From an uncultured Phycisphaeraceae bacterium (lineage in GTDB: Bacteria; Planctomycetota; Phycisphaerae; Phycisphaerales; UBA1924): a stretch of 46,978 nucleotides of DNA. The stretch spans positions 1 through 46,978 of the forward strand of contig CALCCF010000040.1 in NCBI GenBank assembly GCA_937899905.1, in the 5' to 3' direction. Positions 11,506 to 37,707 of the stretch are shown piece by piece. Every line of letters begins with the position of its first letter. Position 1 is the stretch's first letter. Under the pieces are notes generated by a model. It was not told the origin of the DNA, searched no databases, and worked only from the letters and a program-made list of their open reading frames with translations. Both the position numbers and the translations under genes were made by a program.

Positions 11506-11912
11506 GCACGACCGCGACCCGCGAGCACGTGGCGATCGTGCACCCCTGGGTTGTGGACGCCTTGCTGACCGGCAAGAAGACCATCGAGAGCCGCTTTTCC
11601 CGCGATCGGCGCCCGCCGTTCGATCGCGTTGCCAGAGGTGATGTGGTGTATTTCAGGGTCACGGGCGGTGGATACGCCGCTCGCGCTGTGGTCGCCAAGG
11701 TCGAATGCCACGAGTCGCTGACACCCGAGAAGGTCTTGCAGATCGAGTCCGACCTGAGATCCAGCATCGGCGGCGAAGACGAGTACTGGCTAGCCGCACG
11801 ATCGGCGAGGTGCGCCACGCTGGTACACCTTGGCCAGTGCGTCGGCATCGAGGCCGGGCCGAAGCTGGATCGGCAGCCCGGTGACCGCCGAGCGTGGTTC
11901 GTGCTCGAGTAG
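11502..11912 (+). CDS. ASCH-domain protein
   Basis: A 136-residue protein of the ASCH/PUA-like fold. Typical features are the early basic signature GKKTIESRFSRDRR, the conserved GDVVYFRVTGG strand, and the closing AWFVLE. ASCH domains are proposed to bind RNA, and some are amidohydrolases on modified nucleosides; the actual substrate here is unknown. The GTG start overlaps the hldE stop (GTGA), so translation is coupled, although no functional link with heptose synthesis is known. An antiporter gene follows 84 bp downstream on the same strand. Confidence 0.82.
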   Translation: MSTTATREHVAIVHPWVVDALLTGKKTIESRFSRDRRPPFDRVARGDVVYFRVTGGGYAARAVVAKVECHESLTPEKVLQIESDLRSSIGGEDEYWLAARSARCATLVHLGQCVGIEAGPKLDRQPGDRRAWFVLE

Positions 11913-11996
11913 CTCGTGCTCGGGTAGTTCATGCCAGTTTCGTTCGTGCCGGTTCGTTCGTGCTGGGTTCGGCCGGCCGCCGTACACTCGCTCCCG

Positions 11997-13838
11997 ATGG
12001 AAGCGCATGGGGCGGTACAGAGCCTTGCCTTGGCCCTTGGCATCGGGGCACTGATCACGGTCGCGAGCGATCGCCTGCGGCAGCCGCCGATCCTGTTTCT
12101 GCTCATCGTTGGGTTCGTGCTGGGCGTCGAAGGCCTGGGGCTGGTCAACGGTGATTACCTGGGCACGAGCGGCTTGCTCGCCATCGTGTCGGTCTCGGTA
12201 GGCCTGCTCGTGTTCGAGGGTGGGCTCGGGCTCGACCGAGGGACCATTGCGCGCGCACCGGGTGCCGTGCGTGGCTTGCTCACAATCGGCGTGATCGTCA
12301 GTTGGGTCGCCACCGCGCTGCTCGGCAGATATCTGCTCGAGCTCCCATGGGACTTGTCGATCTTGCTCGGATCGATGCTGATCGTCACCGGACCCACGGT
12401 GATCCAGCCGATCCTGCGGCGCACGCCCATGAAGCCGGGTCTGCACTCGACGCTGATGGCCGAGGGCATCCTCATCGACCCCATCGGCGTCGTCGCGGCG
12501 GTGTCGACGCTCGAGATCGTGCGCCTGACCATTGAGCAACCGGGATCGGCTGGGCCGCTGGCCATCGGCGGGCAGTTCATCGTGCCCGCGATCACCGGCG
12601 TCGGGCTTGGCATCATGGCGGGGTACTTGGCCGCCCGAACTCTGCAAACCCTGAGTGCGAACAACCGCGCCGATACGCAGACGCTCGTGCTGGTCGGCCT
12701 ATCGGCGTGCATGATCTCGTTCGGGTTCTCCGAGGCGGTCGCCAGCGAAGCAGGACTGGTCGCGGCGACGATCTGCGGGCTCGTGCTGGCAAACATGGCG
12801 CGCGTTGGTGCCGAGCAGATGCGCCGCTTCAAGGAAACCACGGCCGTCATGCTCGTGGGCGCACTCTTCATCCTGCTCGCGTCGCGCGTTGACCTCGAAC
12901 GGCTCGCCGATGTCGAGATCCAGGACATCGTCTTCGTCGCGTGCATCGTGTTCGTCGTGCGTCCGCTGGCCGTCGCGGCGGGCACGATCCGTACCGGACT
13001 GAGCTTCCGCGAGCGCTTGTACGCCGCGTTGATCGCGCCGCGCGGCATCGTGGCGATTTCGCTGGGCGCCATCGTTGCCATCGAGTTAGCGCGAACGGCC
13101 GCGCTCGTCGTCGACACGAGGCCCACCCTCGCCGCCGACGCCGAACGCCTCGAGACACTGGTGATCCTGGTCATCGTCACGACCGTCACGCTCGCGGGCC
13201 TTACCGCCGGACCGCTCGCGACGCTGCTCCGAGTGCGTGCGGGCCGGCCCAACGGTGTCATCATCGTCGGCGGAAACCGGCTGGGGCGCGATCTGGCGGC
13301 GCACCTGCGAGCCCTCAACGTGCCCGCGAAGCTCGTAGATACGAACGCCGCGAATATCACCGCGGCGGCGAGTTCGGGCATCACCACGCACATGGGCAGC
13401 GCGACGGACACACGCTGGATGGATCAGGAGGTTGCCTCGACCGGGTATGGCAATGTGCTGAGCCTCTCGGACAACGATGAGGTGGATGGTGCGGTGTCGC
13501 GCTGGGCGTCGCAGCGTTTCGGCAGCCGGCACGTGCTGCGCTGGCGGCGCGAGAAGCCGCTCGCGCCCGCACGGGGGACGCCGGTTGTCGGCACGGCGAT
13601 GAAGTGGGGCCGGCCGCTGCGGCACCTGCTGTTCCAGATGGACACCGGACTCGCGCGGTGCGCCACGTGGGAGGAGGCCAAGCCGGGCGCGATCCCGATC
13701 CTGGCGGTCGATGGCGAGGGCCAGGTTCACATGGTCGACGATGGCGAGACGGCCAGCGCCTTCGACGGGAGCCCGCCGGAGGGCGTCCGATTCATCGGGG
13801 TTGAGATCGGCCCAGCACCCAAAGCCGCAGCCGAGTGA
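11997..13838 (+). CDS. Cation:proton antiporter with C-terminal TrkA-N (RCK) domain
   Basis: A 613-residue inner-membrane transporter of the CPA (NhaP/KefB-like) group. About twelve membrane helices lie in residues 1-400 (for example LLAIVSVSVGLLVFEGGLGL and LIVTGPTVIQPILRR, the latter matching the discontinuous-helix region with TGPT). A cytoplasmic NAD-binding TrkA-N domain follows from about residue 420 (GVIIVGGNRLGRDLAAHL). The family exchanges Na+ or K+ for protons and controls internal pH; the nucleotide-binding tail gates activity. The ion cannot be told from sequence alone. The ATG at 11997 is chosen because the upstream open stretch is not protein-like. It is probably the third gene of the hldE transcript. 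Confidence 0.9.
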   Translation: MEAHGAVQSLALALGIGALITVASDRLRQPPILFLLIVGFVLGVEGLGLVNGDYLGTSGLLAIVSVSVGLLVFEGGLGLDRGTIARAPGAVRGLLTIGVIVSWVATALLGRYLLELPWDLSILLGSMLIVTGPTVIQPILRRTPMKPGLHSTLMAEGILIDPIGVVAAVSTLEIVRLTIEQPGSAGPLAIGGQFIVPAITGVGLGIMAGYLAARTLQTLSANNRADTQTLVLVGLSACMISFGFSEAVASEAGLVAATICGLVLANMARVGAEQMRRFKETTAVMLVGALFILLASRVDLERLADVEIQDIVFVACIVFVVRPLAVAAGTIRTGLSFRERLYAALIAPRGIVAISLGAIVAIELARTAALVVDTRPTLAADAERLETLVILVIVTTVTLAGLTAGPLATLLRVRAGRPNGVIIVGGNRLGRDLAAHLRALNVPAKLVDTNAANITAAASSGITTHMGSATDTRWMDQEVASTGYGNVLSLSDNDEVDGAVSRWASQRFGSRHVLRWRREKPLAPARGTPVVGTAMKWGRPLRHLLFQMDTGLARCATWEEAKPGAIPILAVDGEGQVHMVDDGETASAFDGSPPEGVRFIGVEIGPAPKAAAE

Positions 13839-14524: not shown

Positions 14525-14596
14525 GCGGGTGTAGCTCAGCGGTAGAGCGTCACGTTGCCAACGTGAATGTCGACGGTTCGAATCCGTTCACCCGCT
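14525..14596 (+). tRNA. tRNA-Gly, anticodon GCC
   Basis: Complete cloverleaf of 72 nt: acceptor GCGGGTG/CACCCGC, D arm gtagctcagcggtagagc, anticodon stem TCACG/CGTGA with loop TTGCCAA (anticodon at 14557-14559), T arm GACGG-TTCGAAT-CCGTT, discriminator U. CCA is not encoded. It is followed by an intrinsic terminator. Confidence 0.97.
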
Positions 14597-30190: not shown

Positions 30191-30263
30191 GGGGCGATGC
30201 CGGACTCGAACCGGCGACACCGGAGTTGTAGCTCCGTGCTCTAACCAATTGAGCTAATCGCAA
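30191..30263 (-). tRNA. Malformed tRNA-like gene (Arg- or Val-like), possibly nonfunctional
   Basis: The D arm (gctcaattggttagagc) and T arm (GCCGG-TTCGAGT-CCGGC) are canonical, with U8-A9 present. The anticodon stem CGGAG/CTCCG encloses only six bases (CTACAA); restoring one base would give CTACGAA, the common Arg(ACG) loop, but this is a guess. The acceptor pairs only over GCGAT/ATCGC; the first two bases (TT) do not match CC. Confidence 0.5.
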
Positions 30264-30347
30264 ACCGAACGCCACCGGCAGAACCCGTAGTCTCGAAACA
30301 CGCCGAACCGAGTCGGGAGCGCGTCGCCGGACGATGGCATACGGCAA

Positions 30348-30414
30348 AGGACGCAAAGGGAGTCGAACCCTCCCGCCGCGCATCACGTACGCGGGCCGCC
30401 CACCCGGGGCGTCC
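30348..30414 (-). tRNA. Shortened tRNA-like gene with GTG (His) anticodon, possibly nonfunctional
   Basis: The acceptor GGACGCC/TGCGTCC pairs at six of seven positions, and the T arm GAGGG-TTCGACT-CCCTT and anticodon stem CGCGT/GCGCG with seven-base loop ACGTGAT are good. Position 33 is C instead of the invariant U. The D arm is reduced to a short GC stem, the usual U8-A9 is replaced by CC, and the total is only 67 nt. Confidence 0.5.
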
Positions 30415-30497
30415 GTAGGACCGTCGTGCGTCTGCGGATGTCAGAGAGCCAAGAGGGCAATGCGCCCCCACTCACGAAACAAACGAATTCGAGTCAA

Positions 30498-30584
30498 TGG
30501 GCCGGGCAGGACTCGAACCTGCGGTGTTCACCACGTGGGTACCCGGTTTACAGCCGGGGTGCGTCGCCGCTTGCATACCGACCC
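30498..30584 (-). tRNA. tRNA-Tyr, anticodon GTA
   Basis: Full class II tRNA of 87 nt: acceptor GGGTCGG/CCGGCCC with one G-U pair, anticodon stem CCCGG/CCGGG with loop CTGTAAA (anticodon at 30549-30551), a long variable arm as expected for bacterial tRNA-Tyr, T arm GCAGG-TTCGAGT-CCTGC, discriminator A. No CCA encoded. Confidence 0.95.
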
Positions 30585-30604
30585 GCAACGAAACTCTGCT
30601 GCAA

Positions 30605-30678
30605 TGACCCCGGCAGGATTCGAACCTGCACTGCGCGGATTCTGAATCCGCTGCCTCTGCCAGTTGGGCTACGGGGCC
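30605..30678 (-). tRNA. Class I tRNA with CAG anticodon (Leu by anticodon; identity uncertain)
   Basis: Well-formed 74-nt cloverleaf: acceptor GGCCCCG/CGGGGTC, U8-A9, D arm gcccaactggcagaggc, anticodon stem GCGGA/TCCGC with loop TTCAGAA (anticodon at 30642-30644), T arm GCAGG-TTCGAAT-CCTGC, discriminator A. The variable loop has only five bases (GCAGT), whereas tRNA-Leu is normally class II with a long variable arm. It lies 20 bp upstream of tRNA-Tyr and is probably co-transcribed with it. Confidence 0.85.
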
Positions 30679-30684
30679 CCTTGT

Positions 30685-31139
30685 GATGTCCTCGCGTTGC
30701 GAGCGCACCGATCGCGCCCACGGTTGCGAGAACCGAACCACGCACGACAGCCGTGCCCCCATCCCGCGGGAACGCGATCATCATCAGATTACCACACCGG
30801 CCCCGGAAGGGAACTCGCCGCCGACGGCCCGACCTGATTTGGAAGGGGAGGCGTCGGCTCGCGGGTTCCGCTGCCGACGCCGGGCGTTTAGCCAGACGTT
30901 CTCGGCAGCATCCCATCTTCGACCAGCAGGCCGAACCGCAGGCTGGCAAGATACCACGCATCACGCGGCGACTTACGCATGCCGTTCAGGGTCAGGATGG
31001 AGTGCTGCAACGTCATAATGCCGGGAGTTTTCCACAGGAATCGCTTGTTGTCAAGCGCGAGCAACAAAAACTGACAACTTGATCCCGTGTCGCAAGAGCA
31101 GTCCGGATCACGTCATCTGCGCTACACTTGGGTGCATTC
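30685..31139. other. Intergenic region between tRNA clusters
   Basis: 455 bp with no convincing gene on either strand. It holds the putative start of the leftward tRNA cluster and the upstream region of tRNA-Gly(TCC). A 7-bp inverted repeat (gttgtca at 31047-31053, tgacaac at 31072-31078) lies about 65 bp before that tRNA. Confidence 0.5.
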
Positions 31140-31211
31140 GCGGGTGTAGCTCAATGGTAGAGCGTCAGCCTTCCAAGCTGAATGTCGACGGTTCGAGTCC
31201 GTTCACCCGCT
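31140..31211 (+). tRNA. tRNA-Gly, anticodon TCC
   Basis: Complete 72-nt cloverleaf nearly identical outside the anticodon arm to the tRNA-Gly at 14525: acceptor GCGGGTG/CACCCGC, anticodon stem TCAGC/GCTGA with loop CTTCCAA (anticodon at 31172-31174), T arm GACGG-TTCGAGT-CCGTT, discriminator U, no encoded CCA. Confidence 0.97.
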
Positions 31212-31258: not shown

Positions 31259-32470
31259 TCACCACAGGTCGACCTTCCACACCAAGCCCCAGCGACTGGC
31301 CATTGTCGGACGCTGCACGCGCACCGTGACCGGGAAGCCGGGAACGAGTCGCTCATCTGTGTCGAGGAGCTCGATTCTTAGGCGTACCGGGCGATCGTCA
31401 GGGTCGGCCGAGTACTGCTGTGAGGCTTGAAGACCGAGCGATGAGTCATGCTGGCCGTACGGCTCGATGAACGCAACGCGTCCTTGGAGTGGTAACGCCG
31501 GATCGTCAACGACCACCTGGACAAGCGTGCCGAGCCCGAGATGTTCGAGGTCGCCGTACCGGACCGATGCCACCACCGACAGTTCGGTCGGATCCAGCAC
31601 GGAGACAATGGGATTGCCAACGCGCACGGAAGTGCCCGGACCGGCGTGCCAGTGCACGACTCGGCAATCGAAGGGCGCGCGGATGGTTGCGGCGTCGATG
31701 TCCGACTGGATCTGCTGAACCAGGTGCATCGATGCGCGGTGCTGGGCACGGAGCACGCCCAGCTCGGACCGCCGAGCCTCCAGGGCGGCCAGCTCCGCTT
31801 CCACGGCGTCGCGCGCAAACCGAGCCTGGGCCACCTCGGACTCGGCCTCTTCGAGCATCACGATTGCAAGCTCGTTGGCGTACACGGCCTTGTCCACTTC
31901 TCGCGCAGAGCCAGCGCTCCCGGCGAGCGCCTGCTTCTGGCGTTCAAGCTCTCGCGCGGTCCACCCCGCGTGGGTCTCGGCGCGCGACTTGCGATGGACC
32001 GAGGCCGTGTGCGTGGCTTCGACTTCCGCGAGCCTCACGTTGAGCAGGCGCTGCGCGTGTTGCAAACCAAGAGTCTCGGCCTCGATGCGCGCGCCGGCCG
32101 CTTCCGCCTTCGCGTGCGCACGCGCGAGCTTTGCCTCGTGCTCGCAGCTCTCCATGGTCGCGAGCACCGCTCCACGCTCGTAGCAACCGCCCAACTCGGC
32201 GAGGCGGGTACTAACGACGCCGTCGTATCGGACACCCAGCTCCACAGTCTGCCCATCCACGACCGCGTCATGAATGAGCAACGGGCCGTACGCCACGACG
32301 CCCCAGTTGAACAAGGCATAGCCGAGACCGGCCGCAACAACCCCCGCACACAGCACCCGCTTTAGCATCGTGCTGAGCCGTCTACCGATCCCCTGGAGAG
32401 AGCCCGGGTGGCCCAAACGGGTGAATTCGTCTGATTCCATTGGCTTTCCAGCGTGCAGAGTCGTTGCCAT
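31259..32470 (-). CDS. HlyD-family membrane fusion (periplasmic adaptor) protein
   Basis: A 403-residue adaptor protein. One N-terminal membrane helix (LCAGVVAAGLGYALFNWG) is followed by a half-lipoyl motif, a long alpha-helical hairpin (about 120-245, rich in Ala/Glu/Arg coiled-coil sequence), a second lipoyl half (ATIRAPFDCRVVHWHAGPGT) and a beta-barrel (VASVRYGDLEHLGLGTLVQV). HlyD proteins link an inner-membrane transporter to an outer-membrane channel. The ATG at 32470 shares a base with the stop of the pgsC-like gene (TGATG) and has AAGGA seven bases upstream, so the three genes form one operon. No ABC, RND or MFS pump gene is adjacent, so the likely partner is the PgsC-like protein. Confidence 0.88.
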   Translation of the reverse strand: MATTLHAGKPMESDEFTRLGHPGSLQGIGRRLSTMLKRVLCAGVVAAGLGYALFNWGVVAYGPLLIHDAVVDGQTVELGVRYDGVVSTRLAELGGCYERGAVLATMESCEHEAKLARAHAKAEAAGARIEAETLGLQHAQRLLNVRLAEVEATHTASVHRKSRAETHAGWTARELERQKQALAGSAGSAREVDKAVYANELAIVMLEEAESEVAQARFARDAVEAELAALEARRSELGVLRAQHRASMHLVQQIQSDIDAATIRAPFDCRVVHWHAGPGTSVRVGNPIVSVLDPTELSVVASVRYGDLEHLGLGTLVQVVVDDPALPLQGRVAFIEPYGQHDSSLGLQASQQYSADPDDRPVRLRIELLDTDERLVPGFPVTVRVQRPTMASRWGLVWKVDLW

Positions 32471-33621
32471 CACGATGTCCTTACACAAGGGTTTTGGGAA
32501 GGTGGGGTTGTCTGGTCGATGAGCGGCGATTCGCGCATCCAGCGTGCCGATGTCAGCAGGCTCAGCGACGCCGCCACGAGCACGGAGCCGCAGAGCGCGA
32601 CGAAGAACGCGTCATCCCCGGCACGGAGCGACCGTGCGAACAGGACGCCGGACAGCGTGAACGTTGTGGCCAGCACAAGCCCTAGAGCCATCCTGCGCCC
32701 GCCCACGCGTTCCGCATCGTTGGCCAGGAGCCCTGGGAGCGTCATGCTGACGAGCGCGAACGCGCCGTATCCCAGAGGATCGGGCGGCATGCCCACGATG
32801 GAACCGCGCACCAGCGTCCAGATCCACGAGAGCGTCGCGGCCACCAGCAGCATCGCGGCGAACTTCCTCCGGCCAAACACGATCGCCCTTGGCATGAGCC
32901 CCCGCACAACGATCGCGTGTGTGAGCCACGCGATCACACCAAGCGTGATCAACTCGAACGGAGACGTCGAGAGCATCGCGATGTAGGCGGCACCGACAAA
33001 TCCGCCCGCGCGTATGCCGTAGCGGTCCGACAACGCCACCGATGCCAGAACGCTCAGGAGCACCGCGAGGGGCAGCCACGACGTCTCGAAGGCAAACAGC
33101 TCCGCCGTCTCGCGATGCGCCGGTGTCAGCGCCACACCCGCAAGGGCATACGTCACGATGGCGAGTCCAACGGTCAGGCTCGACACGCTGAACGCGGTGT
33201 TGCGCGCACCTTGAGTCGCCACGTCGTGCGCGAGCAGCCCCGGCACGATGAAGCCGATGCCTACGAGCACGTCGCTCGCGACGGACGTCCCGGCCGTGCC
33301 CTGCCCACCAGGCCCGGTGTGCAACGCCATGCTCACAAGGATCGCGACTGGCATAAGCGCGAGGAAGCGAGTCTTCCCGGTCATCACTACGAACCGCGGC
33401 ATGGCGATGTAGACGACGCCGTAGGTCAGGGCCGCCGTCAGCAGCGTGACGCCGAGCGCCTGCGGGCTATCGAAGTGCAGCGCCAGGTACGCGGGCGTGA
33501 TGATGCTGCCACACGACAGGTGCCAGCGGTCGTAGAGCCACACCGACAGGCCGATGCCCAGGATGAATGCCAGCCGCGCGACGTCGGGCGGCAGCGGGAC
33601 CATGCCAGCATCAACCAGCAT
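32470..33621 (-). CDS. pgsC: PgsC/CapC-like membrane protein, internally duplicated
   Basis: A 383-residue polytopic membrane protein of the poly-gamma-glutamate PgsC/CapC family. Family PgsC is about 150 residues; here two copies are fused. Copy 1 (about 20-165) has LSCGSIITPAYLALHFDSP, GKTRFLALM and GFIVPGLLAHDVATQG. Copy 2 (about 200-340) has IRAGGFVGAAYIAML, GRRKFAAML and SMTLPGLLANDAERVG in the same order. PgsC works with the ligase PgsB in making or moving the polyglutamate chain. The ATG at 33621 overlaps the pgsB stop by 11 bp; a second ATG at 33603 is possible. The stop overlaps the hlyD start. Confidence 0.88.
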   Translation of the reverse strand: MLVDAGMVPLPPDVARLAFILGIGLSVWLYDRWHLSCGSIITPAYLALHFDSPQALGVTLLTAALTYGVVYIAMPRFVVMTGKTRFLALMPVAILVSMALHTGPGGQGTAGTSVASDVLVGIGFIVPGLLAHDVATQGARNTAFSVSSLTVGLAIVTYALAGVALTPAHRETAELFAFETSWLPLAVLLSVLASVALSDRYGIRAGGFVGAAYIAMLSTSPFELITLGVIAWLTHAIVVRGLMPRAIVFGRRKFAAMLLVAATLSWIWTLVRGSIVGMPPDPLGYGAFALVSMTLPGLLANDAERVGGRRMALGLVLATTFTLSGVLFARSLRAGDDAFFVALCGSVLVAASLSLLTSARWMRESPLIDQTTPPSQNPCVRTS

Positions 33622-34822
33622 GCCACTCCCCTTCGAAGACCTGCAGCAGCGCGGACGCCTGCGCCGAGTGGATGTTGGCCAATCCAAGCAAGAGCACGTG
33701 CTCGGTCGGCTGCTCGGCGACGAGCAAGGCAAGCAGCCGGCCGAGAGACAGCTCTCGCTGCTCCCCGGCGAGCACCAGCCGATCGCGCGAGATCCCGTGC
33801 TGCGACTGCAGGCGTTTGGCCAGTACGTGCTCGTACGCCCCGAGCAGGGCGATCCGATCGAGCCCAAGCTCCGTCGCCGCGATGTCCGCAAACTGCGTTG
33901 CCCGCTGCTCTCGATCGGCTCGGTTGTTGAGGATGCCAACGACGGTGGTGTCGACCGTACGATGCCTCGACAGCGCATCGACCGCGGCGACCACGCTCTC
34001 ACGATCGTTGACGGCGAAGAGGTTCGCCCACGTCACCCGCTTGCCGAGCATTTCGAAGGACCGCAGTCGAAGCACGCCCGGATCGGGGGCGGCGCTCTGC
34101 ATGCCACGGATCGCGGCCTCTCGGTCGATGCCCAGCAGCTCGGCGATGGCCAGGCCGATCGCGATGTTGTCCTTGAACGCGAAGTACGAGAACCCCTTCA
34201 CGTCGGCATCCGACACGGCCTGCGGGGTTGCAACCAGGATCTCCGTTCCGCGAGCTTCGGCCTCGCGACGCATGACGCCGAGGATCTCGGGATCCTCTTC
34301 GGCCGTCACGAGCGTGCCGTTCGTGGGGCAGGTGTTCATGAGCGATCGCGCGATTTCGGGCCTGGTTTCGCCCATCACATCCTGGTGGTCTTCTCGTACA
34401 TTGGTGATGACGCCGATGGTGGAACGCACGATGCGGTGCTCCGAGGTGTGTTGGTTGTTTGGCTTGAGGGCCATGCACTCGATCACGAGCGCCCCGGTGG
34501 TGGGCGAGGCGTGCGCACCAATGACCTCGATCTGCTCGAGGATGGTCGGTGCGCCCCGGCGGCGGATCGGATGCTCGCTCGCATCCGGAGCGATCACCGC
34601 GGCGGCGGTTCCCGTGCACTTGGCCACGGTCTCGATACCCGCCTCGCGGAGCATACCGGCGACGATTCGGGTTACCGTCGACTTCCCACGCGTGCCATTG
34701 ACGTGGATCCGCACCGGGATCGAGGCGATCAGCCGCTCGTGGCGAACCGCCTCGCGACGCCACAGGCGCCACACGATGACCACTACGGCAAGAGCCGGGA
34801 AGAGCAGTAGTTCCGAGTCCAC
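33611..34822 (-). CDS. pgsB: Poly-gamma-glutamate synthase subunit PgsB/CapB
   Basis: A 403-residue ATP-dependent amide ligase of the Mur/PgsB type, which activates a gamma-carboxylate and adds an amino acid, classically glutamate. One N-terminal membrane helix (LLLFPALAVVVIVWRL) is followed by the P-loop NGTRGKSTV at 42-50 and the characteristic GVITNVREDHQDVMG and ALKPNNQHTSEH stretches. Length matches B. subtilis PgsB (about 390 residues). The GTG start has GGAGG five bases upstream. It heads the pgsB-pgsC-hlyD operon. The usual PgsA/CapA gene is absent. The product could be polyglutamate or another amide-linked polymer. Confidence 0.92.
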   Translation of the reverse strand: MDSELLLFPALAVVVIVWRLWRREAVRHERLIASIPVRIHVNGTRGKSTVTRIVAGMLREAGIETVAKCTGTAAAVIAPDASEHPIRRRGAPTILEQIEVIGAHASPTTGALVIECMALKPNNQHTSEHRIVRSTIGVITNVREDHQDVMGETRPEIARSLMNTCPTNGTLVTAEEDPEILGVMRREAEARGTEILVATPQAVSDADVKGFSYFAFKDNIAIGLAIAELLGIDREAAIRGMQSAAPDPGVLRLRSFEMLGKRVTWANLFAVNDRESVVAAVDALSRHRTVDTTVVGILNNRADREQRATQFADIAATELGLDRIALLGAYEHVLAKRLQSQHGISRDRLVLAGEQRELSLGRLLALLVAEQPTEHVLLLGLANIHSAQASALLQVFEGEWHAG

Positions 34823-35038
34823 GGTCCCTCCGGCAACTCCCCCCCGACGCGCTTGTGGGCCTTGCCGACAACCCCATCGCGGAAACGAGCGCGCTCACCG
34901 GACACGCCGCGGTAGAATTTCTTGGTTCGAGTTTTCGGGCGTTGGGTCGCGATCTCTGCCGTACCGAAACCCTTGGGAACTCCCGTCCGAAACGTACGGT
35001 GTTGGGGTGAGACACAGCGCCAAGTGCGAGGCTTTGCG

Positions 35039-35593
35039 GTGAGCACAGAACCCCAGCCAACACGTGCAGCCGAGACCAACCTCACACCCGAGTTGCTCGA
35101 CCAGCTGATGCCCGTCGTGTACGACGAGCTCCGCGAACTCGCCGAGCGCACGCTCGGGGAGAAGGCCCGATCGCTTACGCTCCAGCCGACCGCGCTGGTG
35201 CACGAGGCGTTCCTGAAGCTCGGCGATGAGCGCAACGGGTGGTCGAGCCGGGCCAACTTCGTCATCGCCGCTTCGGTCGCGATGCGACGCGTGATGCTCG
35301 ACCACGTACGCGCGCGCAACGCCCAGAAGCGTGGCGGCGGCCGTCGTGCGGATGTCGATGTGGTGACGGTCGCCGTGGATGATCGTGCCGTCGACGTTCT
35401 TGTACTCGAGGAAGCCATGAAGCAGCTCGAGCAGCACGACCCAGATGCCGCCCAGGTCGCGCAGCTGCGCGTGTATGCCGGGCTGACGATGCAAGAGATC
35501 GCCGCCGCAACCGATGTCAGCGAGAAGACCGTCCAGCGCCGGTGGAGATTCGCGCGGGCATGGCTCATCGCAGCGATCGGGGACGGCCAGTGA
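35039..35593 (+). CDS. ECF-type RNA polymerase sigma factor (planctomycete-type)
   Basis: A 184-residue sigma factor of the ECF subfamily common in planctomycetes and acidobacteria. Region 2 is marked by YDELRELAERTLGEKA and LTLQPTALVHEAFLKLG, the linker by a Lys/Arg-rich RAQK-like stretch (ARNAQKRGGGRR), and region 4 by LRVYAGLTMQEIAAATDVS followed by the recognition helix KTVQRRWRFARAWL. It would direct polymerase to a special promoter set. The GTG at 35039 has GAGG seven bases upstream. Its stop overlaps the kinase GTG (GTGA), so kinase and sigma factor are made together and the kinase probably controls the sigma factor; no anti-sigma factor gene is seen. Confidence 0.93.
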   Translation: MSTEPQPTRAAETNLTPELLDQLMPVVYDELRELAERTLGEKARSLTLQPTALVHEAFLKLGDERNGWSSRANFVIAASVAMRRVMLDHVRARNAQKRGGGRRADVDVVTVAVDDRAVDVLVLEEAMKQLEQHDPDAAQVAQLRVYAGLTMQEIAAATDVSEKTVQRRWRFARAWLIAAIGDGQ

Positions 35594-37707
35594 CAACGCC
35601 CGGCCCGTCCATTCAGGAGCTGTTCGAGTTGCTCGTCGCCGCACCAGCAGACGAGCGCGAGGAGCGCATCAGCACGAGCACCCTCCCCGAAGACGACAAG
35701 CAGACCCTGCGCCGGATGCTCCGCGTTGACGACCGGCTCGGCGATGCCGCCGACCAACCAAGCCGTCGCCACCCCTGGCCCGGCGACGTTGTCGGCGAGT
35801 ACCGATTGATCGCGCCCATCGGCAGCGGCGGCATGGGCAACGTCTGGCGTGCACACTCGCTATCGGCACCCGAACTGATGGTCGCCGTCAAGTTTGCCAA
35901 CTGGACGAACAAGCAGCACGCAGAGTCCGCGCAGCGCCTCCGGCAAGAGGGCAGCATCCTTGCCGCCATCCGCCACCCGGGCGTGGTGTCCCTGGTCGGC
36001 CGGGGCGAGACCGACGCGGGCCGACCGTACATCGTCCTCGAAGAACTGCTCGGTCCGACGCTCGACGAGTTCCTGGAGCGCAGCCAGCACACCGCGTGGG
36101 ACATCGCGCACATCATGCTCCGGCTTTGCGAGGCGGCCTCTTCCGCGCACGTGGCGGGGGTCATCCACCGCGACATCAAGCCGTCGAACATCATCGTCGC
36201 CGCGGGGAGCACGCCGGTGCTCGTCGACTTCGGAGCCGCCGCCATCGTCCCCAGCGCGGCCATCGCCTCAGACCGGATCACGCAAGGCGCATCGCCGATG
36301 ACCCCGGCGTTCGCGAGCCCCGAGCAATCACGCGGCGAGTTAGCCACCCCCGCGACAGACGTCTACGCCCTTGGTCTCATCATGCGGCTCGCGTTGAAAG
36401 CCGTTCATGACCCGACTTCCGGCCCCGCTGCTGTCCTCCAGGCTGTCGCGGCGCGCGCATGCAGCGACGATCCCGCCGCTCGTTACCCGAACGCCAAAGT
36501 GCTCGCCGACGACCTTGCCGCCGGCTTGCGAAACCATGCACCGTCTCCAATCACGTCAGGCAAGAGCGGAAAGCGATCCGCACGCATTGCCGCAACCACA
36601 CTGGCCATCGGCCTTGCCATCGGCACGGTGACGGGGTCGATGGTCTTGCCTTCTGGGACCCTCTTTGGGTTCGGTGATCAACACCTCGAATTCGAGTCGA
36701 TCGGCGATGGCCTCGATGAACTCGCCGAGGCAAGCTCCGAGCAGGACCACGACACGCTGTTCCGCTTGATCGTGGACACGCCCTGGGTCGAGATCGAGAG
36801 CGGCCCCGAAGAACGCCTGGAAGTCGCTCGCCTCCAGCTTGAAGCCGGAGCAATCGACGCGGCGATGCGCGGGCTCGAAGCGATCGAAGCCGAGGAACTC
36901 GAACCCACGCTTCAGCTCGAGCGGGACTGGCTCGTCGCGCGGGCCGACGCCAGCCTCGGGTATCAACCCGAGCCGCAAGCCGTGCAGCGGATGCTCCGCG
37001 ACGCCATCGAATCGGAAGAGGAAGCAACCGAGCGAGCGATCGTGCTACACGGCGTTGCCTCGGGCGACGCAAGCGACCTCCAGCGATGGCTCGAGTGGGA
37101 TGAGCCAACTCTCGCAGAACCGTGGGAACCCGATACCGAGACGCTCGTGGCACTGCTCTCACTCACGAACCGACTCACGCTCGCAGAGATGATCGAACCG
37201 CTCTCGGATGAACTGCTCGATGAGATCGAAGAGCGAATCGGAACGGCGCTCGATGGTGAAGACATCCTCGAAACGCACGAGTCGCTGGTCCACCTGCGTG
37301 GTCTCGCCCATCTCCGCACGGCTCGGATGCTGACTGCCATCCGTGATGGCGGTCGCGAGATCGTGGTTAATGACTGGCTAGCCCTGCTCGACGCCTCCGC
37401 AGAACACCCGGCGGACCTCGTGCTGACACATTGCCTGACACTCCACCACATCGCGAACGGCGGAGCGGTCCCGCTGTTTCCGTTCGAAGGCGACGAGTTC
37501 AACGTGGCGGTGCGGAGCGCCATCTCCCGATCGCTCGAGCTCGTCACCGGCGACGGCCTTGACGATAGCGACGTCCTGGCCGACCTGCTCCGAGAAGAAG
37601 CGATCTTCACCGATCGCATCGGGATCTCCGACGAGCGCATCGTGGAGATCCGCCGGCTCGTCACCGGTCTCGAGGATGAAGGCATGTGGACTCCCCGGCT
37701 CCCGTGA
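35590..37707 (+). CDS. Serine/threonine protein kinase, membrane-anchored
   Basis: A 705-residue Hanks-type kinase. The kinase domain (about 70-325) shows the Gly-rich loop IGSGGMGNVW, invariant K101 (VAVKFANW), catalytic HRDIKPSNI (193-201), DFGAAA (213-218) and SPEQSRG in place of APE. One membrane helix (IAATTLAIGLAIGTVTGSMVL at about 330-350) precedes a 350-residue external part made mostly of acidic alpha helices with TPR-like rhythm (LQLEAGAIDAAMRGLEAIEA), probably a sensor. The N-terminal 65 residues are a short helical region typical of planctomycete kinases. GTG start at 35590 within the sigma gene stop gives translational coupling. Confidence 0.92.
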   Translation: MTTPGPSIQELFELLVAAPADEREERISTSTLPEDDKQTLRRMLRVDDRLGDAADQPSRRHPWPGDVVGEYRLIAPIGSGGMGNVWRAHSLSAPELMVAVKFANWTNKQHAESAQRLRQEGSILAAIRHPGVVSLVGRGETDAGRPYIVLEELLGPTLDEFLERSQHTAWDIAHIMLRLCEAASSAHVAGVIHRDIKPSNIIVAAGSTPVLVDFGAAAIVPSAAIASDRITQGASPMTPAFASPEQSRGELATPATDVYALGLIMRLALKAVHDPTSGPAAVLQAVAARACSDDPAARYPNAKVLADDLAAGLRNHAPSPITSGKSGKRSARIAATTLAIGLAIGTVTGSMVLPSGTLFGFGDQHLEFESIGDGLDELAEASSEQDHDTLFRLIVDTPWVEIESGPEERLEVARLQLEAGAIDAAMRGLEAIEAEELEPTLQLERDWLVARADASLGYQPEPQAVQRMLRDAIESEEEATERAIVLHGVASGDASDLQRWLEWDEPTLAEPWEPDTETLVALLSLTNRLTLAEMIEPLSDELLDEIEERIGTALDGEDILETHESLVHLRGLAHLRTARMLTAIRDGGREIVVNDWLALLDASAEHPADLVLTHCLTLHHIANGGAVPLFPFEGDEFNVAVRSAISRSLELVTGDGLDDSDVLADLLREEAIFTDRIGISDERIVEIRRLVTGLEDEGMWTPRLP

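Follow-up and report, generated by a model that had tools for sequence, protein, structure and literature searches.

How might a bacterium with two membranes release poly-gamma-glutamate? To our knowledge, no machine has been solved that takes this polymer across an outer membrane. The question is raised by a three-gene operon, pgsB-pgsC2-hlyD, on a 46,978-nucleotide contig (called the window throughout; GenBank CALCCF010000040.1, assembly GCA_937899905.1) of an uncultured Phycisphaeraceae bacterium, in which genes for a polyglutamate-type ligase and a doubled PgsC membrane protein are joined by one for a HlyD membrane-fusion protein. Here, we report an analysis of the operon, its 3.63-Mb genome (G000; 113 contigs, of which the window is C40; completeness, 95.07%; contamination, 0.31%), and its relatives. 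We propose that the operon encodes a membrane synthase-exporter for gamma-linked polyglutamate, or a close relative of it, with its own adaptor, HlyD, reaching a TolC-family channel (probability, about 0.6). A genetic link between hlyD and pgsBC is well supported, and HlyD is most likely a dedicated adaptor of the PgsBC synthase, passing the polymer to a TolC-type channel.

Operon and encoded proteins

The first-pass annotation had placed overlapping pgsB, doubled pgsC, and hlyD genes at positions 31259 to 34822; profile matches, the overlaps, and identical outer coordinates bore this out. The three genes lie head to tail on the minus strand, as follows.

33611-34822, minus strand: pgsB, 403 amino acids (aa), GTG start; poly-gamma-glutamate-synthase-type amide ligase with a Mur-ligase middle domain
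32470-33621, minus strand: pgsC2, 383 aa; doubled PgsC/CapC membrane protein
33196-33561, minus strand: first CapC repeat of pgsC2 (PF14102, 76.3 bits; cut-off, 27)
32701-33054, minus strand: second CapC repeat of pgsC2 (PF14102, 64.3 bits; cut-off, 27)
31259-32470, minus strand: hlyD, 403 aa; HlyD/EmrA-like periplasmic adaptor (membrane-fusion protein)
31682-32155, minus strand: predicted hlyD alpha-hairpin, codons 106 to 263; two long helices in the AlphaFold2 model, matched by Foldseek to EmrA (4tko)
31907-31942, minus strand: hlyD hairpin tip, codons 177 to 188; partial RLS (TolC-binding) motif

The pgsC2 gene begins within pgsB, its ATG giving an 11-base overlap, and the hlyD ATG shares one base with the pgsC2 stop codon; both sizes depend on the start codons chosen, and hlyD has a longer TTG alternative at 32488.

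PgsB matched the TIGR04012 equivalog at 352.8 bits (cut-off, 222.7) and PF08245 at 37.1 bits, and its HVNGTRGKST and REDHQDVMG stretches fall mostly on columns invariant over eight aligned PgsBs. Compared by sequence with solved structures, it gave three weak matches, to folylpolyglutamate synthases. PgsC2 matched TIGR04011 in two stretches (121.5 bits; cut-off, 96.45), and its repeats are the sole PF14102 matches in G000. Its AlphaFold2 model (pLDDT, 84.6; pTM, 0.86) is nearly all helix, with a helix list that reads as two repeats and no sizeable extra domain. A fold search with this model returned nothing at an E value of 0.001 or better, PgsC had no sequence match among solved structures, and no PgsC homologue was found on plasmids at an E value of 0.001.

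HlyD matched PF13437 (50.5 bits) and PF16576 (32.9 bits), both above cut-off. Its AlphaFold2 model, built from two input sequences, has a mean pLDDT of 63.7, with a helix at residues 25 to 61 of low to middling pLDDT. A long hairpin is predicted, with helices at 106 to 183 and 189 to 263 (78 and 75 residues) and pLDDT above 90 in most ten-residue blocks; the model is poor elsewhere. The best Foldseek match was EmrA (4tko; E value, 1.9e-9), and EmrA, EmrAB-TolC, and MacAB-TolC (MacA) chains headed the fold search. The helix lengths are near those of EmrA, whose hairpin helices span residues 77 to 160 and 165 to 244 and whose hairpin is 127 angstroms long (PMC4158417, taken, like every PMC source below, in excerpt). 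The inner-membrane major facilitator superfamily (MFS) partner of EmrA has no significant periplasmic part according to that excerpt (PMC4158417), a likeness to the modelled PgsC2. At the hairpin tip, the published TolC-binding motif is RxxxLxxxxxxS/T (PMC3391258); the window HlyD has R177, A181, and S188, so that R and S stand at the published spacing with Ala in the Leu position.

A second operon with hlyD

Named genomes were searched with PgsB, and the best 80 of 504 confirmed loci were taken. A doubled PgsC beside pgsB was found at the first 28 (L053 to L080; PgsB identity, 43 to 59% in the best segment). Adaptor searches placed hlyD next to pgsC at one of these 28, L062 (JAUIDW010000088.1, "bacterium 8_bin.1," genome G669), where the order is again pgsB-pgsC2-hlyD and pgsC and hlyD overlap. 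This survey for the linkage without pgsA thus yielded one further operon, in a genome without a CapA match.

The window and L062 proteins are 57% identical for PgsB and 26 to 27% for HlyD. The two operon HlyDs are nonetheless reciprocal best hits among the 29 PF13437 adaptors of both genomes, scoring 60.6 and 63.2 bits, with the runner-up adaptor in the other genome at 25.9 and 21.3. In a concatenated PgsB-PgsC tree, the window and L062 were joined (support, 89/76) outside the other 25 doubled rows. Nearer the window, a sample of 60 further genomes from its family held no ortholog-like HlyD; weak matches occurred in 28 of the 60, the best at 36.3 bits over 147 residues versus 881 for the window HlyD itself. 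PF14102 had no match in 80 relatives of G669.

The L062 operon continues with a fourth gene (11707-12537) for a 276-aa protein without a Pfam or NCBIfam match. It shares 32% identity (E value, 1.5e-37) with L033:5575-6339, found some 2.9 kb ahead of a gene for a fused double CapC; the two are possibly a CapC-linked hydrolase family. PF05013 (FGase) had no match in G000 and did not detect the L062 fourth gene. A neighboring gene at L062 matches DUF6677, which we take to be a planctomycetal family.

The third-gene slot

The statement that PgsA/CapA is missing stood: PF09587 (PGA_cap; PgsA/CapA) had no match in the G000 assembly. Thirteen genomes, picked from the 29 represented by the window and the 28 loci, were tested with this profile; it matched neither in G669 nor in the L078 genome (Parcubacteria, 1.0 Mb), and it matched in 10 of the 11 other doubled-PgsC genomes. 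TIGR04332 also had no match in G000 or G669.

The first-pass annotation had further taken PgsA/CapA to be the usual third component, which the survey did not support. A TIGR04332-type gene lies directly downstream on the same strand in 53 of 59 single-PgsC rows, equal to 51 of 57 distinct loci (two contigs are present twice, L045 = L087 and L047 = L084), and at none of the 28 doubled-PgsC loci. Seven of the 59 rows supplied the seeds of the TIGR04332-type search profile; these seven proteins score 280 to 331 bits on TIGR04332 itself (cut-off, 100). Six single-PgsC loci lack such a gene: in five, the sequence stops no more than about 850 bases from pgsB, and in L099 there are 2,676 bases of room. 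CapA lies within 6 kb at 4 of the 28 doubled loci and in 5 of the 59 single rows (4 of 57 distinct), its seeming rarity near single-PgsC pgsBC being explained by the TIGR04332 gene there. These proportions describe the nearest relatives of the window PgsB, so Bacillus-type systems are under-represented. An adaptor-like open reading frame within 6 kb was seen at 2 of the 57 distinct single-PgsC loci, in neither case adjoining (L111, 1,394 bases from pgsB; L131, 4,908 bases). CapsuleFinder, in the excerpt used, treats CapB and CapC as mandatory and CapA as accessory (PMC5542703).

As to the premise that PgsA or CapA handles the polymer in known systems, PgsA was dispensable in one study of overexpressing Bacillus subtilis, where PgsBC without PgsA still made polymer (PMC6029982); an earlier study cited there found PgsA essential.

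A TolC homologue, which the proposed route would need, was found: PF02321 (TolC family) matched in both G000 and G669. The G000 matches (nine, of which eight are above cut-off) fall in four genes, on C15, C69, C94, and C103. Read from gene maps, the C69 gene stands beside an adaptor and the C103 gene beside an ABC/MacB pair, and no neighboring adaptor was seen for those on C15 and C94. PF02321 had no match in five Acidimicrobiia/Anaerolineae doubled-PgsC genomes tested. The two doubled-PgsC genomes in which TolC-family genes were found are those with hlyD beside pgsBC; none of the 27 other doubled loci, four of which end inside pgsC, showed it there.

The doubled-PgsC clade

Doubling of PgsC is not confined to this operon and marks a whole clade. 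In a PgsB tree of 88 rows (86 different), a branch with an SH-aLRT of 99 separates the 29 doubled rows, window included, from the others. Doubling was called by phmmer for 27 of the 28 loci and by reading the gene map for L078 (PgsC alignment, 19%); the L065 PgsC, counted as doubled, runs off its contig after 179 aa, and at L053 pgsC precedes pgsB. Where a class is stated, these loci are all Acidimicrobiia or Anaerolineae. In a tree of PgsC half-sequences, N and C groups stand apart (SH-aLRT, 79 and 99), which fits a single duplication in the clade.

Seven loci (L067:5579-7981, L068, L070, L072, L074, L079, and L080; Acidimicrobiales or Chloroflexota) have a gene for a BcsB-like cellulose synthase subunit before pgsB-pgsC2, grouped by BLAST with a Pfam scan on the L067 protein only. 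The BLAST gene clusters, which include shadow reading frames, were consulted for recurrent true genes alone.

CapC repeats also occur in 12 Planctomycetota loci (L031 to L039 and L042 to L044) as open frames of 944 to 1,233 aa, apart from one that a contig end truncates at 410 aa. They begin with CapC domains, two in most cases; the long region behind them was without a Pfam match in L038, the sole protein scanned. These were ruled out as relatives of the operon, being long fusions at loci where no PgsB was found. The halves of six such proteins formed groups of their own in the tree, for which the tool warned of long branches meeting.

Comparison with known systems

The Bacillus PgsBCA/CapBCA system (TIGR04012, TIGR04011, PF09587) shares the PgsB and PgsC families and the order B then C with the window operon, which differs in its doubled PgsC, its HlyD in third place, and the lack of a PgsA/CapA match in the genome. 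PgsB-PgsC-TIGR04332 operons (Zixibacteria, Cloacimonadota, Myxococcota, Planctomycetota, and others) likewise comprise three genes with the third directly downstream, and their third protein, like HlyD, begins with what by eye is a membrane-helix-like stretch; they differ in the family of that protein and in an undoubled PgsC. A Cloacimonadota operon has been described as CapB-CapC-CapA(PgsF) (PMC13082233), and at a Cloacimonadota locus in our sample (L115), the third gene scores as TIGR04332.

The Acidimicrobiia/Anaerolineae operons hold, apart from L062, the PgsBs most similar to that of the window (best-segment identity, up to 58%) and share the doubling, but have no HlyD beside pgsBC at 27 loci (four of which end within pgsC), CapA in 10 of 11 genomes, and TolC-family genes in none of 5. 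EmrAB-TolC, MacAB-TolC, and HlyBD-TolC share HlyD domains, an N-terminal membrane helix, a long hairpin, and TolC-family proteins in the genome; their inner partner is an MFS, RND, or ABC transporter, whereas here it would be the PgsBC polymer synthase and channel, with a presumed TolC contact.

Proposed mechanism and alternatives

In the mechanism we propose, PgsB would sit on the cytoplasmic side of the inner membrane and join glutamates using ATP, and PgsC2, a fused pair of CapC units, would carry the growing chain across the inner membrane. Synthesis and chain passage by PgsB-PgsC are established in Bacillus. HlyD, held by its N-terminal helix, would be positioned over PgsC, and its EmrA-like coiled-coil hairpin would span the periplasm to a TolC-family channel encoded elsewhere in the genome, so that the polymer would exit without entering the periplasm. 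HlyD would fill the slot of the TIGR04332 protein or PgsA/CapA in other PgsBC systems.

The first-pass annotation had similarly tied HlyD to PgsBC as a replacement for PgsA/CapA in a Gram-negative cell. The tie itself gained from the second operon, the reciprocal-best HlyDs, the lack of CapA, the TolC-family genes in both genomes, and the lack of an ortholog-like HlyD in family relatives; contact between PgsC and HlyD, docking on TolC, exit through the outer membrane, and the chemistry of the polymer are inferred.

Several observations weigh against the proposal. Only two hlyD-bearing operons were found in all, and the tree tool gave no star to their sister grouping. Of the 27 other doubled loci, four (L054, L055, L065, and L076) end inside pgsC, so a following hlyD would not be visible there. 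Neither operon, as read, contains a tolC gene. The window HlyD has an incomplete tip motif, with Ala for Leu, and the L062 HlyD a conservatively changed one (R158, M162, S169; Met for Leu). The adaptor matches have low Foldseek TM-scores, none above 0.33 by either length, which reflects the poorly modelled regions outside the hairpin. G669 comes without a completeness figure, which weakens its lack of CapA, and the small L078 genome also lacks CapA though no hlyD stands beside its pgsBC.

Some of these points would suit a HlyD that partners PgsBC solely as a scaffold or co-polymerase in the periplasm, a role that PgsA may have; the polymer would then stay periplasmic or wall-bound, and an outer-membrane channel would not be involved. 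In addition to the missing tolC gene and imperfect tip, there are HlyD-family matches in control genomes with a single membrane, B. subtilis among them. In that species, the excerpt describes a tight PgsB-PgsC association and a weak one with PgsA, whose loss in one study shifted the D/L ratio and did not abolish the polymer (PMC6029982). The long, EmrA-like hairpin argues for a channel, as does the finding of hlyD in the two doubled-PgsC genomes with TolC-family genes and beside pgsBC at none of the 27 other doubled loci (four of them truncated in pgsC), and we regard a pure scaffold as unlikely.

It is about equally improbable that the doubled-PgsC clade uses another acidic substrate and that HlyD exports a polymer other than poly-gamma-glutamate. 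The branch between the doubled clade and the single-PgsC PgsBs is long and well supported, the window PgsB is only 34 to 41% identical to seven other Planctomycetota PgsBs, and the PgsC halves are very diverged; but PgsB and PgsC both score above the NCBI equivalog cut-offs for poly-gamma-glutamate proteins, and the ligase motifs are strongly conserved.

That HlyD is a mere passenger serving an unrelated pump is the least probable alternative, since, although adaptors are common (10 PF13437 matches in G000, operon HlyD included) and can serve partners encoded elsewhere, the hlyD start overlaps pgsC2, the operon has no other transporter gene, L062 repeats the linkage with a reciprocal-best HlyD, family relatives lack an ortholog-like HlyD, and five of the nine other G000 adaptors have associations of their own (two beside ACR_tran pumps, two fused to M50 peptidase domains, and one beside an OEP gene; the other four are unclassified). 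The second operon and the reciprocal-best HlyDs led us to reject chance neighborhood as the most likely reading.

Genome context

The placement in Planctomycetota agrees with DNA that two loci named as this phylum (L084 and L087) share with contigs of G289 and G146, genomes surveyed as members of the window's phylum. Of the genomes sampled from the phylum, 15 of 294 and 18 of 392 have a PF14102 match (overlapping draws, window's genome included), as do 4 of 397 in a class sample, where the three besides the window's share only its class. This patchy occurrence suggests that the pgs genes probably arrived horizontally. A tRNA-Gly gene ends 47 bases past hlyD, and a recent island at this site was considered. 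No boundary was seen: the operon genes have a G+C content of 0.657 to 0.665 versus 0.662 for the window, and the tRNA region matched only the other tRNA-Gly gene at 14525, plus chance words of 11 to 12 bases. An empty site in relatives, sought via the divergent extracytoplasmic function (ECF) sigma gene, could not be found, the best relative match being 51% identical.

Five tRNA genes (ARAGORN; one anticodon unclear) lie at 30191-31211, just downstream of hlyD. Divergent from pgsB, overlapping ECF sigma and Ser/Thr kinase genes occupy 34922-37707 (plus strand) and may form a regulator pair. They are followed by a gene for an SbtA-type bicarbonate transporter (PF05982; 37827-39124, plus strand) and a frame whose end, by eye, resembles a small PII-type partner.

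Implications

PgsB and PgsC pairs have been found in 250 bacterial species (PMC4497714), and poly-gamma-glutamate capsules are reported to be especially common in several groups that include Planctomycetes (PMC5542703). A literature search that left subscription journals largely outside its reach found no paper combining poly-gamma-glutamate, pgsB, pgsC, and HlyD, and none whose title or abstract start describes an outer-membrane machine for this polymer.

The pgsBC2-hlyD pairing suggests a possible way for two-membrane bacteria to push the polymer out. More tentatively, at somewhat less than even odds, PgsBC2-HlyD may be a tripartite envelope machine of a new class, whose inner-membrane part, a polyamide synthase, extrudes its own product via the fused PgsC dimer, its own HlyD, and a TolC-type channel that is shared. 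HlyD would then stand in for the PgsA/CapA or TIGR04332 subunit, and poly-gamma-glutamate would have a TolC route across two membranes. If this is true, TolC-type channels would gain a polymer synthase as a partner, and the third subunit of PgsBC would be a swappable slot, held by PgsA/CapA, HlyD, or a TIGR04332 protein and open to comparison between bacteria with one membrane and those with two.

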